Assembly: GCF_000328665.1 (NCBI RefSeq)
Contig: NC_019977.1
Location: 682,001-746,000 of the forward strand
From: Methanomethylovorans hollandica DSM 15978
GTDB lineage: Archaea; Halobacteriota; Methanosarcinia; Methanosarcinales; Methanosarcinaceae
Length of the DNA stretch: 64,000 nucleotides
Reading direction: 5' to 3'
Each line of letters starts with the position of its first letter. Position 1 is the first letter of the stretch. Below, one piece after another: positions 4,964-20,006 of this stretch. The position numbers were made by a program, and so were the translations under genes. The notes beneath the pieces were generated by a model that saw only the letters and a program-made list of their open reading frames with translations, searched no databases and was not told where the DNA came from.

Positions 4964-6166
4964 GTGATGACTCGCAATGTTGATGATATTCACTGTACTG
5001 ATACAGGTTTTTTATGTGCAATGGAACGCCTGAAAAACTCAGGGATTGGCCAGGAGAACATAAACATTATTGAGAAGTTTGTGATAGCCTGCAGGCGGGA
5101 AGAGCTGGCAAAGAATACTATAATATGGTACATTAATTATAGTACCCGTTTAGCACAGCGCCTTCATGATATGGGATATGACAAGACAATTGATAAGCTG
5201 GAACAGGATGATTTTGATAGGCTGTTATTTTACCTGGAGGAAGAGAGGGGACTTTCACCGAGCAGCCTTAGGAACTATAGAAAGCTGATTAAAAAGTTCT
5301 ATGGATGGGCTTATAATGGCGAGCCTCCACGCTGGATTAAGGACATTAAACTTAATACCATAGATACACCTGTGCAGCCGTCTGATCTACTCACACAGGC
5401 CGATTTTGATAAGCTTATGGAGGCATGTAGACACCCCAGGGATAAAGCCCTTATTGCTGTACTTGCAGATTCCGGGATGAGAGTAGGGGCCCTGGCATCC
5501 TGCAGAGTAAAGAATGTTGTGTTCAATCAATACGGGGCCATTCTCTATATATCACCTACCAGCCAATCAAAGAAAAACACACCTGCAAAAGGTATTCCTT
5601 TAACTTGGTCCACTGGATATCTTAACCAATGGATGGCAGTACACCCACTCAGAGAAGATCCTGAAGCGCCTTTGTGGGTTACCCGTGACAGGAACATGGA
5701 ACCGTTGAGTTACAAGTCTTTCCGAATCACAATAAAGAAGATTGCTGAACGCGCAGGCATAAAGAAGCGGGTTAATCCCCACAGCTTCAGGCATCTTGCT
5801 ATTACTCATTGGATCTTAGACGGATACAACGAGCAGGAGATCAAGCACCGGGCCGGGTGGTCCAAAGGATCCACACAGATGTTTAAGATATATGCCAATT
5901 TCACAGATCAGGAAATTAATGATAGGATCTATGAGAAGTGCGGATTGAAGACAGAGGACAAAAGGCACGTCACCCTTAAGAAGTGTCCACGCTGCAGCAA
6001 CGTGTTAAGGCAGTCGGATAAGTTCTGCTCGCAGTGCTCTCTTGTGCTGGACAGGCAGGCACTGGACGAGATCAAGCAGTATGAAGACAGGTTGCCTGAG
6101 ATACTACAACTTGTAATGAGATCAGAGAAGGCAAGGGAATTAATGGGAAATATGGAGAAAAGTTAA
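4964..6166 (+). CDS. Tyrosine recombinase (integrase) with C-terminal zinc ribbon
   Basis: A 400-residue site-specific recombinase expected to integrate and excise the surrounding element. An N-terminal SAM-like core-binding domain (~30-130) is followed by the catalytic domain with Arg173 (DSGMRVGAL), the HxxR box His273/Arg276 (HSFRH), the AGW segment near 297 and the nucleophile Tyr310 (FKIYANF). A Cys4 zinc ribbon (CPRCSN...CSQC, Cys341-358) lies behind the catalytic core, a layout common in archaeal plasmid and provirus integrases. GTG 4964 and ATG 4967 are adjacent possible starts; no clear ribosome binding site precedes them, which suits a leaderless transcript. All catalytic positions I can check are intact, so it is probably active. 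Confidence 0.9.
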   Translation: MMTRNVDDIHCTDTGFLCAMERLKNSGIGQENINIIEKFVIACRREELAKNTIIWYINYSTRLAQRLHDMGYDKTIDKLEQDDFDRLLFYLEEERGLSPSSLRNYRKLIKKFYGWAYNGEPPRWIKDIKLNTIDTPVQPSDLLTQADFDKLMEACRHPRDKALIAVLADSGMRVGALASCRVKNVVFNQYGAILYISPTSQSKKNTPAKGIPLTWSTGYLNQWMAVHPLREDPEAPLWVTRDRNMEPLSYKSFRITIKKIAERAGIKKRVNPHSFRHLAITHWILDGYNEQEIKHRAGWSKGSTQMFKIYANFTDQEINDRIYEKCGLKTEDKRHVTLKKCPRCSNVLRQSDKFCSQCSLVLDRQALDEIKQYEDRLPEILQLVMRSEKARELMGNMEKS

Positions 6167-6185: not shown

Positions 6186-6779
6186 TCATTCTGTTCCATC
6201 TTTAATATATGGTTCCAAAGATTCTATCGGCTCTAGTTCTTCTATAATTGGTTGCATGTTCAAGTAAAGGACAGGATACTCTTTTTTCCTAGACTCTTCA
6301 ACAAGCTTAAAACTATGCTTTGTGTAAAATGTTACTGACTGTGGCTTTGAGTCAACTGTAATATATCTACACCCTGCAATATCTGATACCTTTTGAGTTA
6401 GGTATATAGCAATATGTAGCATGTATGATCCCACACCCATACGTTGGAACTTTTCATCCGTTGCTAACCTAGCAAGTTTCAAAGCTGGGTATCTTGAGTA
6501 AGGGAAATCATCTACACAGTCAGAAGAATTGATTGATTTAACTTGTATTGTATCGGTGGTTAAAGTGAAATATCCTACTAGATGATTTTGATAATAGCAG
6601 ACATAAGTCTTATTGATGAGTTGCTCTTGATTCCGGAGAGCATCGTTTTTCAAGAAATCGTTTAAATCACTATTTGTACAGTGAAAATATGAAATATCTA
6701 TTCTTTTAGAAAGTGGATGAGTAACAAATTCAGAATCATCTATCTTTGATGTCAAGATTAAACCTAATCGTGCTTGCAA
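6186..6779 (-). CDS. GNAT acetyltransferase, TacT-like toxin candidate
   Basis: A GNAT-fold N-acetyltransferase of up to 197 residues. The acetyl-CoA loop motif is seen in DEKFQRMGVGSYML (Q/RxxGxG) and the late motif in SVTFYTKHSFKLV, with the tyrosine used as general acid in this fold. The N-terminal FHCTNSDLNDFLKNDA segment matches the FDCGNxELDxFL pattern of the subgroup that includes TacT/AtaT toxins, which acetylate aminoacyl-tRNA. No ATG is present near the 5' end: TTG at 6779 is the longest start and TTG at 6755, with TTAGGT upstream, is as likely. The 5' end overlaps the 3' end of a 54-residue gene in another frame, the order expected for antitoxin-toxin. Toxicity is inferred from family and arrangement only. 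Confidence 0.75.
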   Translation of the reverse strand: MQARLGLILTSKIDDSEFVTHPLSKRIDISYFHCTNSDLNDFLKNDALRNQEQLINKTYVCYYQNHLVGYFTLTTDTIQVKSINSSDCVDDFPYSRYPALKLARLATDEKFQRMGVGSYMLHIAIYLTQKVSDIAGCRYITVDSKPQSVTFYTKHSFKLVEESRKKEYPVLYLNMQPIIEELEPIESLEPYIKDGTE

Positions 6780-6900
6780 GTTTCCTTGCTCTCTTGAACA
6801 TCTCTACCTGCTGTTTTGTGGCTGGTTTCTTTTCGTTCTCCCAGAATTCCCGGGCGTCTTCACCTTCTAGGACCAGACCCAGCTCTATAGGTTTTGCCAT
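6736..6900 (-). CDS. Small protein upstream of GNAT gene, putative antitoxin
   Basis: ATG at 6900, preceded by TAGGAG at 9-base spacing, opens a 54-residue frame beginning MAKPIELGLVLEGEDAREF and ending near RFNLDIKDR with TGA at 6736. The I-x-L-x-L-V-L-E-G-E-D-A pattern followed by a helix recalls short archaeal proteins often encoded immediately upstream of GNAT or PIN toxins. It is not the usual DUF1778 ribbon-helix-helix antitoxin. A TATA-like TTGTATAAATC lies about 35 bases upstream. The 3' end overlaps the GNAT frame, implying translational coupling. Assignment as antitoxin rests on this context. Confidence 0.55.
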   Translation of the reverse strand: MAKPIELGLVLEGEDAREFWENEKKPATKQQVEMFKRARKLASTIRFNLDIKDR

Positions 6901-7098: not shown

Positions 7099-7410
7099 TT
7101 ATTTATCGCTTGATTTTTTGTTTTCTCCATCGCTCACAAGCAAGTATAATTCAAATGCCTTGCTCATTGCCTCCATCCGGGTTTTAAGCTCTTCTATCTC
7201 TTCCTGTTGCTTATCCTGTCTTTTCTCAGTATCGGTTATCTTTTTTTCTATGTTGGTGTCATCGGTTAGTTTTTCCGAAGCGTCAACAATCAATATCAGT
7301 GCTTCTGTCCGGTTCCTGGCTTTCCCGGCCTCTATCATTTTATCGAGGTGTTCAATAACCCGGTCTGGCAGTCGGAAATTATATTTTTTTGTGAACGTGT
7401 CGCTTTCCAT
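7099..7410 (-). CDS. Ribbon-helix-helix DNA-binding protein with coiled-coil tail
   Basis: 103 residues. The first ~45 residues (KKYNFRLPDRVIEHLDKMIE, then RNRTEALILIV) fit a CopG/MetJ-type ribbon-helix-helix: a short beta strand, then two helices with the NRTEA turn. Residues ~52-85 are rich in Lys, Glu and Gln with heptad spacing, suggesting a coiled coil for oligomerisation. It is divergent from the AbrB-like gene, and the 119-base spacer between them contains repeated operator-like half sites, so it probably represses itself and its neighbour. In integrated plasmids such proteins usually control copy number or gene expression of the element. Confidence 0.7.
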   Translation of the reverse strand: MESDTFTKKYNFRLPDRVIEHLDKMIEAGKARNRTEALILIVDASEKLTDDTNIEKKITDTEKRQDKQQEEIEELKTRMEAMSKAFELYLLVSDGENKKSSDK

Positions 7411-7414
7411 AGTG

Positions 7415-7519
7415 GTACATTTGTATGTATGGTATTTGTATTATGTGGTTTTATAAAAATACAATTGTATGTACAAATGTACGCAAGCTTTAAATGCAAT
7501 CCTAGCATACATACAATTG
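7415..7519. promoter_or_regulatory. Divergent promoters with paired operator half-sites
   Basis: Two TATA-like boxes face apart: TTTATAAAA (7450-7458, read leftwards) and CTTTAAAT (7488-7495, read rightwards). GTACATTTGT (7415-7424) is repeated inverted as ACAAATGTAC (7473-7482), and CAATTGTATGTA (7462-7473) is repeated inverted as TACATACAATTG (7508-7519). The half-sites flank both boxes, as expected for cooperative binding by one of the two adjacent regulators. Confidence 0.55.
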
Positions 7520-7529
7520 GAGGTACAAA

Positions 7530-7694
7530 ATGACTCACAGAATATTAGCACAGGGGAAAAACAGCCGGACCTTCCTTTGTATTCCTGCTTATCTTCGTGA
7601 TAAGTTCGGATTGAAGAAAGGCAGTATAGTAGATGTGACTGACACAGAAGGAAAGATAGTAATTACTCCGATTATGGAGAATGACAAAGAATAA
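7530..7694 (+). CDS. AbrB/MazE-type swapped-hairpin DNA-binding protein
   Basis: A 54-residue protein starting MTHRILAQGKNSRTF at an ATG with GGAGGT upstream (7518-7523). The sequence CIPAYLRDKFGLKKGSIVDV followed by a glutamate-lysine-rich strand and IVITP is the classic SpoVT/AbrB domain: a strand, the P-x-x-L-R-x-x-x-G-L-x-x-G turn, then strands. Such proteins act as dimeric repressors or as antitoxins. No toxin gene follows directly, so a regulator role within the element is more likely. Its promoter is inside the shared operator region with the ribbon-helix-helix gene. Confidence 0.75.
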   Translation: MTHRILAQGKNSRTFLCIPAYLRDKFGLKKGSIVDVTDTEGKIVITPIMENDKE

Positions 7695-7701
7695 GAAGAA
7701 A

Positions 7702-7798
7702 TGTGAATCCCCGGAAGCCGAAACCCCAGAAATTCACAGACTCGCACCTGTGAATATGTCTCTCTAGGCATATATCAGTTTTGTAGGTTCTGGCTTCC
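7702..7798 (+). ncRNA. Foldable leader or small RNA with alternative stems
   Basis: Between the AbrB-like gene and the next small gene the transcript can form a three-way junction. The outer stem pairs GGAAGCC-GA-AACC (7713-7725) with GGTT-CT-GGCTTCC (7786-7798). Inside are a perfect hairpin ATTCACAG-8-CTGTGAAT (7732-7755) and a weaker ATATG/CATAT hairpin (about 7754-7773). A second TGTGAAT at 7702-7708 can compete for the same ATTCACA strand, giving two mutually exclusive folds. The ribosome binding site of the next gene (AGGAGG, 7813 onward) lies just beyond. It matches no riboswitch class I recognise. Confidence 0.4.
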
Positions 7799-7827
7799 TG
7801 GAGACCACAAAACAGGAGGCAAAGAAC

Positions 7828-8022
7828 ATGACTGAAATCAGAGACTTGCAGACAACTGCAGCGGAATTGTATAACAGTGTGGAAAACAAGAAGTGGATCT
7901 TTACCCACACAAGGAACGAAACCGAATATTACGCCATCAGAAACGCCTTGAAGGTTCTGTCTAACTGGCAACCTGTGGAATGGCAGGGAGAACCGGGCGA
8001 ACGTGTACCCGTGGAGGTGTGA
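7828..8022 (+). CDS. Hypothetical 64-residue protein of the element
   Basis: Starts MTEIRDLQTTAAELYNSVEN with AGGAGG 9 bases upstream. The protein is acidic, mostly helical, and contains W residues in KKWIFTHTRNETEYYAIRNAL and VLSNWQPVEWQGE. I do not recognise the family. It is followed after three bases by the next small gene, so both are probably cotranslated from one messenger carrying the structured leader upstream. Confidence 0.6.
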   Translation: MTEIRDLQTTAAELYNSVENKKWIFTHTRNETEYYAIRNALKVLSNWQPVEWQGEPGERVPVEV

Positions 8023-8025
8023 ATA

Positions 8026-8340
8026 ATGAAGAAAATCATAAACGGCAAGATGTACAACACCGAGACAGCCGAAGAAATAGCAACCTGGTCTAATTCATAC
8101 TACCCTTCAGATTTCCACTACTGCCAGGAAACCCTATACAAGACAAAGAAGGGAGCATACTTCTTATACGGGGAAGGCGGTCCAGCCTCCCGGTATTCTC
8201 AACCAGTGGGCAACAGTGGCCGGGGTGGTGGCAGTGAAATAGTAGCACTCACAGCCGACCGGGCCTTTGATTGGCTGGAAGAGCACGACCTCACAGAAGA
8301 AGCAGAAAAAGAATTTCCCGGAAAGATCGAGGAGGCCTGA
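8026..8340 (+). CDS. Hypothetical protein of a plasmid/phage-associated family
   Basis: 104 residues beginning MKKIINGKMYNTETAEEIAT. The pattern KxIxGKxYxTETAExIA, an aromatic stretch (YYPSDFHYCQETLYKTKKG), then FLYGEGGPASRY and an acidic C-terminal helix (ADRAFDWLEEHDLTEEA) recurs in small uncharacterised proteins from phages and plasmids of bacteria and archaea. No catalytic motif is evident. It is preceded by a GGAGGTG overlapping the end of the upstream gene and ends with GGAGG serving the next gene, showing tight operon packing. Confidence 0.65.
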   Translation: MKKIINGKMYNTETAEEIATWSNSYYPSDFHYCQETLYKTKKGAYFLYGEGGPASRYSQPVGNSGRGGGSEIVALTADRAFDWLEEHDLTEEAEKEFPGKIEEA

Positions 8341-9034: not shown

Positions 9035-9295
9035 ATGATAAACAAAAATAATAATGATGTTGGGCCTAGGCACGACCCAACTATAGAGAACTGTGCTACA
9101 CTATATAGAAACGACTCACAGGTTTATAATACTAATCCTTCTGTTTCGGATGACTTGCAGCAGTTGAGAAACGAGTCAGTGATTAGGGATTTTGCCAACG
9201 TTACCCCAGATACATACGCGTTGATCAAGGCTACTAATCCTACTCTTTTAATGTTCGTGAATCTCGCTAAAAAGATCATGGAGGCAGTGGGATGA
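9035..9295 (+). CDS. Hypothetical protein preceding the primase
   Basis: An 86-residue protein from the ATG at 9035 (MINKNNNDVGPRHDP), with GATGAG just upstream; GTG 8999 and ATG 9026 are other in-frame starts. The N-terminal half is Asn/Asp-rich and probably disordered. The C-terminal half contains helices (SDDLQQLRNESVIRDF, YALIKATNPTLLMFVNLAK). It overlaps the primase start by four bases (ATGA), so the two are translationally coupled. It may be a small partner of the primase, but no motif shows this. Confidence 0.55.
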   Translation: MINKNNNDVGPRHDPTIENCATLYRNDSQVYNTNPSVSDDLQQLRNESVIRDFANVTPDTYALIKATNPTLLMFVNLAKKIMEAVG

Positions 9296-13995: not shown

Positions 13996-14805
13996 GTGAT
14001 AATATGCCAGCACCCCTCAGAAATAATAGAACTTGTAGGACGTTTTGATCAATATTATAAAAAATATACATCACCATCTTACAATGAAACACAAGTGAGA
14101 AGAGAATTCATTGATCCATTTTTCAAGTCACTAGGCTGGGATGTGGATAATACTCAGGCATACGATGAGAGGTATAAAGAGGTTATCCATGAGGATGCTG
14201 TAAAGGTGGGTGGCAAGACCAAAGCACCGGATTACTCTTTCAGGATCGGTGGGGTAAGGAAGTTCTTTGTTGAAGCAAAGAAACCGGCAGTAAATCTTAA
14301 AGAGAACCCAGAGCCTACATATCAGCTTCGCCGTTACGCATGGAGTGCAAAGTTGCCTGTAAGCATCCTTACGGACTTTGAGGAGTTCATTGTCTTTGAT
14401 TGCACACGGAAACCATCACCGAATGATAATTCTTCGCTTGGGCGCATTGAATACTATACGTATAAGGATTATATCCAAAAATGGGATGAGATAGCATCGA
14501 AATATTCAAAAAAGGCTGTCTTTACAGGTAAATTTGATGATCTTGCCGATAGCCTGTTGCAGAAGAAAGGCGGAAAGGGTACAGCAGGCATAGATGATGC
14601 CTTCTTGGCGGAGATCGAAGGCTGGAGGGAGGAACTTGCTAAAAACCTTGCTCTCAGAAATGCCAGTCTTTCAGTACGGGAATTGAACCTTGCAGTGCAG
14701 AAGATCATTGATAGAATTGTTTTTTTACGTATATGTGAGGACAGGGGGATTGAGAAGTAAGGCCAGCTAAAAACAAAAGCTGAAGGGAAGGATGTTTACA
14801 AAGGC
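13996..14805 (+). pseudogene. 5' fragment of a type IIG (Eco57I-class) restriction-modification gene
   Basis: The first 254 codons from GTG 13996 (MIICQHPSEIIELVGRFDQ) match the N-terminal nuclease half of long type IIG restriction-methylases: YNETQVRREFIDPFFKSLGW, the PD-(D/E)xK-like APDYSFRIGG...FFVEAKKP (Asp and Glu-x-Lys visible), LRRYAWSAKLPVSILTDFEE and LNLAVQKIIDRIVFLRICED. Full proteins of this family are ~1000 residues and continue with Y-G-x-L-K-x-L-x-E-G. Here the reading frame stops at TAA (14758-14760) exactly where the Tyr codon is expected, and the same frame continues GQLKTKAEGKDVYKG before similarity ends near 14805. So a nonsense mutation followed by loss of the methylase part is likely. 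Confidence 0.8.
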
Positions 14806-19601: not shown

Positions 19602-20006
19602 ATGACTTTATCAAAAACCAGCCGTCTTAAGGTGTCCACGGTATTTAAGAGGGGCACCGCACTTGAATTGAGAAGAGACGGCCACACACTACAAGAAATA
19701 GCCGATAGGTTAGAATGTTCTCGGTCATATGTATACAAACTAATATCATCATCACTTATTGAACTGTCTAAACAATCACATCAGGCAGTTGTGGAACTCA
19801 GAGAACTTGAAAGCATGCGATTAGATGCACTCTGGGAGCAAGCATACACAAAAGCCATGAATGGAGACCTGGCAGCCATAAACACATGTGTAAGGATAAG
19901 CGAACGTAGGTCCAAGTTATGGGGGTTGGATGGAGTTCAGAAACTGGAACATTCAGGCGGGGTTACAATATCGTTGCAATTGGCAGACTGTAGTAAAAGG
20001 GAGTAA
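19602..20006 (+). CDS. HTH protein resembling a phage terminase small subunit
   Basis: 134 residues starting MTLSKTSRLKVSTVFKRGTA with AAGGAG upstream. Residues ~20-50 (ELRRDGHTLQEIADRLECSR) form a helix-turn-helix of the homeodomain/Hin type, followed by YVYKLISSSLIEL and a long alpha-helical part (LESMRLDALWEQAYTKAMNG, DLAAINTCVRISERRSKLWG) very like the oligomerisation and ATP-site-proximal segments of phage TerS-like proteins. No large terminase or structural gene is nearby; it lies ~260 bases from tRNA-Ala, a common integration neighbourhood. Probably a leftover of an excised or decayed virus. The 20007-20266 spacer shows no further gene. Confidence 0.6.
   Translation: MTLSKTSRLKVSTVFKRGTALELRRDGHTLQEIADRLECSRSYVYKLISSSLIELSKQSHQAVVELRELESMRLDALWEQAYTKAMNGDLAAINTCVRISERRSKLWGLDGVQKLEHSGGVTISLQLADCSKRE

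Follow-up and report, generated by a model that had tools for sequence, protein, structure and literature searches.

A candidate translational RNA switch in the early-gene leader of a Methanosarcinaceae provirus family

Location and fold of the spacer RNA

A spacer between two small genes, inside what seems to be a provirus remnant on a Methanosarcinaceae chromosome, carries a structured RNA that is probably (at roughly 0.6, on comparative sequence grounds) a cis-acting translational switch located in the leader that precedes the first early gene or genes of a Methanosarcinaceae provirus family. Mutually exclusive pairing, either within the outer stem (P1) or between the 3' arm of P1 and the Shine-Dalgarno region of the gene that follows, is kept across its homologues and is weak in three of them (L038, L188, and L040).

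In the window, i.e., the whole 64-kb stretch of DNA analyzed, the spacer occupies positions 7695-7827 of the + strand, with the stop of a 54-aa gene on its 5' side and the ATG (7828) of a 64-aa gene on its 3' side (Table 1). The 54-aa gene is presumed to share a transcript with the spacer, and the 64-aa gene is presumed to be the one regulated by the RNA. The stems and the second TGTGAAT that a preliminary description had listed are all present in the sequence at 7702-7798. In the outer stem, GGAAGCC (7713-7719) pairs with GGCTTCC (7792-7798) and AACC (7722-7725) with GGTT (7786-7789). The ATATG/CATAT hairpin shares two bases with the end of the P2 hairpin.

The + strand spacer has a computed folding energy of -40.1 kcal/mol. 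Dinucleotide-shuffled versions give -28.6 +/- 3.4 (z -3.4), none of 200 folding as low, and the - strand folds more weakly (z -2.1). Folding energy is unconvincing on its own, since 41 of 844 GC-matched 136-base segments of the 64 kb (approximately 5%), a few of them overlapping the spacer itself, fold equally low.

Table 1. Features of the spacer RNA and of the genes around it (positions in the window)
Feature	Position	Strand	Basis or remark
Gene for 54-aa MazE/AbrB-like DNA-binding protein	7530-7694	+	Pfam MazE_antitoxin, 2.6e-7
TGTGAAT	7702-7708	+	Matches the position of the CATTAA stretch of the relatives
P1 outer extensions, TGTG and TCCC	7702-7705 and 7708-7711	+	
P1 5' arm, GGAAGCCGAAACC	7713-7725	+	Computed fold; covariation in relatives
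CCCCAGA, just before or at the beginning of P2	7724-7730	+	CCCAGA invariant across seven loci
P2 hairpin, ATTCACAG-loop-CTGTGAAT	7732-7755	+	Computed fold; ATTCACAG (7732-7739) pairs with CTGTGAAT (7748-7755)
P2 loop, GACTCGCA, candidate recognition site	7739-7746	+	Same in six loci; GACTCACA in L188/L189
ATATG (7754-7758)/CATAT (7769-7773) hairpin	7754-7773	+	Seen only in the window copy
P1 3' arm, GGTTCTGGCTTCC, proposed switching strand	7786-7798	+	Pairs with P1 5' arm or Shine-Dalgarno region
Shine-Dalgarno region, CAGGAGGCAAAGAAC	7813-7827	+	13 bp with P1 3' arm region in the alternative state
64-aa gene, no assigned function, candidate regulated gene	7828-8022	+	Homologue after the RNA in L188 (61% identical)
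Primase gene	from 9292		
D5-type helicase gene	10345		

Related RNAs in proviruses and viral contigs

Six further loci, proviral or viral (L036, L037, L038, L041, L175, and L188/L189), carry related RNAs at syntenic positions and share the order of small regulator gene, RNA, first early gene, and primase-helicase. L036, L037, L038, and L041 were located by a search with the AbrB-like protein followed by inspection of the region downstream, and L175 was added via a sequence pattern. AbrB-like homologues precede the RNA in these four loci, in L188, and in the weak locus L040, and in L175 a gene of ribbon-helix-helix type (its sequence was read by eye) takes the place of the AbrB gene. In the viral contigs L188/L189 the AbrB gene and the RNA are followed by a 61% identical homologue of the 64-aa gene of the window. 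The downstream gene differs by copy and encodes a zinc-ribbon, 64-aa, or membrane protein. The membrane protein is found in L040/L199, a weak and diverged candidate (19.2 bits, E 0.0066 with the five-locus model), where the gene next after the RNA (L199 6637-7458, - strand) encodes 273 aa, in contrast to the zinc-ribbon or 64-aa genes of the other loci. Note that the good loci number only seven, all from one archaeal family or from viral contigs, and that L037 and L175 are close relatives of each other.

By sequence and synteny, the window copy appears to be a divergent but clearly related member of this family. It lies at the syntenic position, has CCCAGA and GACTCGCA in P2, and has a P1 that encloses P2. 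It is closer to each of the six relatives than is any of 500 dinucleotide shuffles. Covariance-model scores are low (8.8 bits and E 0.81 with model R1; 12.1 bits and E 0.098 with model R2, in 10 kb) because the hairpin region has diverged, and the best match in the 10 kb falls at the right place.

The pattern CAGANANNCAN{2,9}GACTCGCA occurs in only seven of the 186 genomes of the order, in six of these at the RNA locus. No more members were found by a covariance-model search of 238 genomes of the class, no match was obtained in plasmid and phage collections, and DNA searches with the spacer gave matches at chance level only. A strict pattern scan of viral sequences returned only the already known contigs L188/L189, and in a loose scan none of at least 120 loci had the P2 3' strand TCTGG. 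Homologues of the 104-aa gene (8026-8340) have no RNA upstream, nor do the zinc-ribbon genes of L183, L184, L185, and L190. Among rejected candidates, L205 (E 0.02) is AT-rich and has no regulator or early-gene context, and L257 and L258 are chance-level matches. No Rfam 15 family reaches its gathering threshold (there are sub-threshold chance matches only), in agreement with the earlier remark that the RNA fits no recognized riboswitch or plasmid RNA.

Compensatory changes in P1 and P2

In the relatives, a long P1 surrounds one long hairpin, P2, plus an unpaired stretch. Their P2 has the form CCAGAnA.../...TTTCTGG or TTCTCTGG, with the loop GACTCGCA (GACTCACA in L188), and the P2 of the window is the counterpart of its upper part. 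The three-way junction proposed earlier does not extend to the family, as none of the relatives shows an equivalent of its ATATG/CATAT hairpin.

In an alignment of five loci, which was padded by hand, eight base pairs have changed on both sides, a number reached by one of 500 shuffles, and 86.7% of the cells are paired compared with 32-56% after sliding. Thirteen double-change pairs are found in a six-sequence alignment, which was fitted to the structure and is biased towards it (0 of 500 shuffles; 0-6 in slid controls). Model R1, built from the five loci, finds the held-out L188 at 2e-10. The aligned stems have 18 G-U and 8 A-C cells, and this excess of G-U modestly favors an RNA of the + strand. 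As read from these alignments, P1 and P2 carry compensatory changes across the relatives. The structured RNA that had been suspected in an integrated element, flanked by two small genes, is thus upheld by homologues in six loci and by changes in their stems, the absence of which had been named as evidence against the structure. Such a comparison confirms the spacer structure as real and conserved, with conservation and compensatory changes setting it apart from chance.

Two partners for the 3' arm of P1

In the alternative pairing, 13 bp can form in the window (7787-7791 with 7823-7827 and 7793-7800 with 7813-7820). This duplex has a computed energy of -19.2 to -20.6 kcal/mol, and the P1 3' arm is the best partner of the Shine-Dalgarno region in the whole leader. 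Scans of the leaders place the best partner at the P1 3' arm in seven of eight loci, L037 being the exception. When each arm, with limits set by eye, is paired with its own or with swapped Shine-Dalgarno regions, own pairs are superior with a fraction of 0.0012 (seven loci) or 0.0022 (the non-redundant seven, with the near-duplicate left out). The same swap test on P1 gives 0.008, implying that both partners of the 3' arm are kept. Shuffles of the arm, again with its limits set by eye, give a combined value of 1.4e-6 with L175 left out; individually, pairing with the Shine-Dalgarno region is weak in L188 (p 0.62), L038 (0.17), and L040 (0.19).

The two states are computed to be approximately 2-4 kcal/mol apart in the window (-41.1 vs -37.9), L041 (-34.5 vs -36.3), and L036 (-31.6 vs -28.0). 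The Shine-Dalgarno-paired state is computed to be the lower one in L037, and P1 is clearly dominant in L038 and L175.

The preliminary description had also envisaged two exclusive states ahead of a ribosome-binding site, with TGTGAAT displacing the 3' arm of P2. The kind of switch is retained in the exchange between the P1 3' arm and the Shine-Dalgarno region, but the proposed strand is not. TGTGAAT/ATTCACA is particular to the window copy, and displacement of P2 by the upstream stretch was rejected as a conserved switch, with a permutation fraction of 0.29 for own vs swapped partners across the relatives. Of the two functions suggested at that time, translation control is probably correct, as pairing between the P1 3' arm and the Shine-Dalgarno region is kept across the relatives. 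Copy control is not favored: the proviruses of the element's family resemble tailed viruses, and nothing indicates an antisense copy-control RNA. The genes after the RNA encode small proteins without known function, and the primase gene begins only at 9292.

Proposed mechanism and alternatives

The transcript of the regulator gene would read through the spacer, and the strand 7786-7798 would then pair with only one of two partners at a time, either the P1 5' arm or the Shine-Dalgarno region. With P1 closed (state A), the Shine-Dalgarno sequence of the next gene would be free and translation presumably ON. With P1 open (state B), it would be hidden by the P1 3' arm and translation presumably OFF. 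P2 with its GACTCGCA loop inside P1 is most likely the recognition site for a trans factor, either a protein or a small molecule, which on binding the loop would tip the balance between the states. Because the flanking genes vary while P1, P2, and the loop persist, the trigger is probably not the product of a neighbor gene; it is probably something common to the hosts or viruses that recognizes the P2 loop. A tRNA as trigger is unsupported because no match above the 6-nt background turned up among 42 distinct host tRNAs, and a T-box was rejected (tRNA-Arg(GCG) matches only 4 nt in the anticodon arm). An RNA thermometer is made less likely by the competition from P1 and by the conserved loop. 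It is conceivable, though doubtful, that the RNA is a virus-encoded riboswitch-like sensor, in which the GACTCGCA hairpin binds a metabolite, or a factor of host or viral origin, and sets early-gene translation via the exchange between P1 and the Shine-Dalgarno region, and hence the choice of the provirus between dormancy and replication.

The conserved hairpin loop, the location with a cro-like regulator gene on one side and the replication operon on the other, and the computed dominance of P1 in L038 and L175 would also suit a fixed structural or processing element of a polycistronic early mRNA (e.g., for stability, as an endonuclease site, or for translation spacing) or the site of an antitermination factor. 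Such a role is unlikely, as the Shine-Dalgarno complementarity would be incidental to it and its locus-specific form would need to be an accident. It is quite improbable that translational coupling or attenuation is at work, with ribosomes that end the regulator gene covering or opening the P1 5' arm and no separate ligand involved. The stop codon of the regulator gene lies approximately 9-23 nt before P1 in all copies, and a terminating ribosome would reach P1 in the window and in L175. However, in four of seven copies this distance is at least 20 nt, past the usual footprint of a terminating ribosome. Coupling also leaves the conserved P2 loop unexplained, and the upstream gene is not the same in every copy.

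An element acting as DNA, such as an operator array, a replication origin, or a recombination site, might mimic stems by its inverted repeats. While palindromic DNA sites are frequent in such regions and divergent regulators lie immediately upstream, the asymmetry between G-U and A-C cells points to RNA in the direction of the genes. Internal loops and mismatches held in register, the conserved hairpin loop, and the Shine-Dalgarno pairing again point to RNA, and a DNA element is very improbable. There is similarly little likelihood of an independent small RNA, or of an internal spacer promoter that gives a leader without P1. A TTATAAA-like stretch, which could be a TATA box, follows P2 in L036, L038, and L041, but L175, L188, L040, and the window lack it.

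Comparison with known regulatory RNAs

Translational control by exchange of a Shine-Dalgarno partner is a mechanism of a known kind, and the RNA family and its archaeal provirus setting appear to be new; searches of a library of open-access papers found no description of it and no naturally occurring RNA switch of any archaeal virus. In riboswitches that sequester the Shine-Dalgarno sequence (e.g., the translational TPP, SAM, and preQ1 types), P1 competes with a pairing that hides this sequence. The provirus RNA is similar in that its closed P1 would compete with such a pairing and in its conserved loop inside P1. Unlike these riboswitches, it has no Rfam similarity, a small conserved core (~20 nt), and no metabolic genes, and the copies found all lie in proviruses or viral contigs.

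The lambda nut and HK022 put sites are factor-binding antitermination RNA elements of phage early operons. They resemble the provirus RNA in their early-operon position by a regulator gene and in a conserved hairpin that would serve as the factor site. However, there is no sequence resemblance, the evidence for the provirus RNA favors Shine-Dalgarno control, and its host is archaeal. Ribosomal-protein leaders and other protein-binding translational operators also place a hairpin with a conserved loop before the Shine-Dalgarno sequence. Unlike in ribosomal-protein leaders, the neighbor genes of the provirus RNA change between copies, so that there is no indication of autoregulation by a single encoded protein. 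The element is conserved, compact, and computed to be bistable, and lies at the border between regulator and early genes in proviruses from several related genera. It may offer a testable handle on early-gene timing by archaeal proviruses and is a candidate translation-control part for Methanosarcina genetics.

The provirus and its surroundings

The element contains, in order, an integrase gene (4964-6166), an opposite-strand gene that is weakly ribbon-helix-helix-like, the AbrB-like gene, the RNA, small genes, primase, and helicase, and the same gene order is found in other Methanosarcinaceae. Genes of the proviral family include integrase, primase-helicase, and terminase. In L194 a related run of genes is followed by a terminase large subunit gene (PHROG 8.6e-115), implying that the family consists of tailed-virus-like proviruses. 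Within the window, no counterpart of the terminase large subunits of the relatives was found, and no direct repeats around the element are recognizable as an attachment site.

A homologue (56-58%) of the gene that precedes the terminase large subunit in L194/L195 is found at 19602-20006, approximately 6 kb past the early region and near tRNA-Ala and tRNA-Ile (20266 and 20513). This suggests that the provirus in the window has been broken up. The divergent regulators at 7099-7530, i.e., the weakly ribbon-helix-helix-like gene (- strand) and the AbrB-like gene (+ strand), have TGTATGTA-type repeats between them, which are probably operators. Also within the element, a GNAT acetyltransferase gene (6186-6900, - strand; Pfam 4.8e-9) overlaps an upstream ORF of 54 aa. 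This layout resembles a GNAT toxin paired with a small antitoxin; the small ORF has no family match. Further along, 13996-14760 encodes an apparently truncated type I restriction R protein, of which the N-terminal part is present (HSDR_N 5.8e-13). The segment 15323-18818 (- strand) encodes two putative secreted proteins, with long internal repeats (approximately 260-300 nt), and the larger one also has a part that by eye looks like the metallo-beta-lactamase type (HPHADHIGG).
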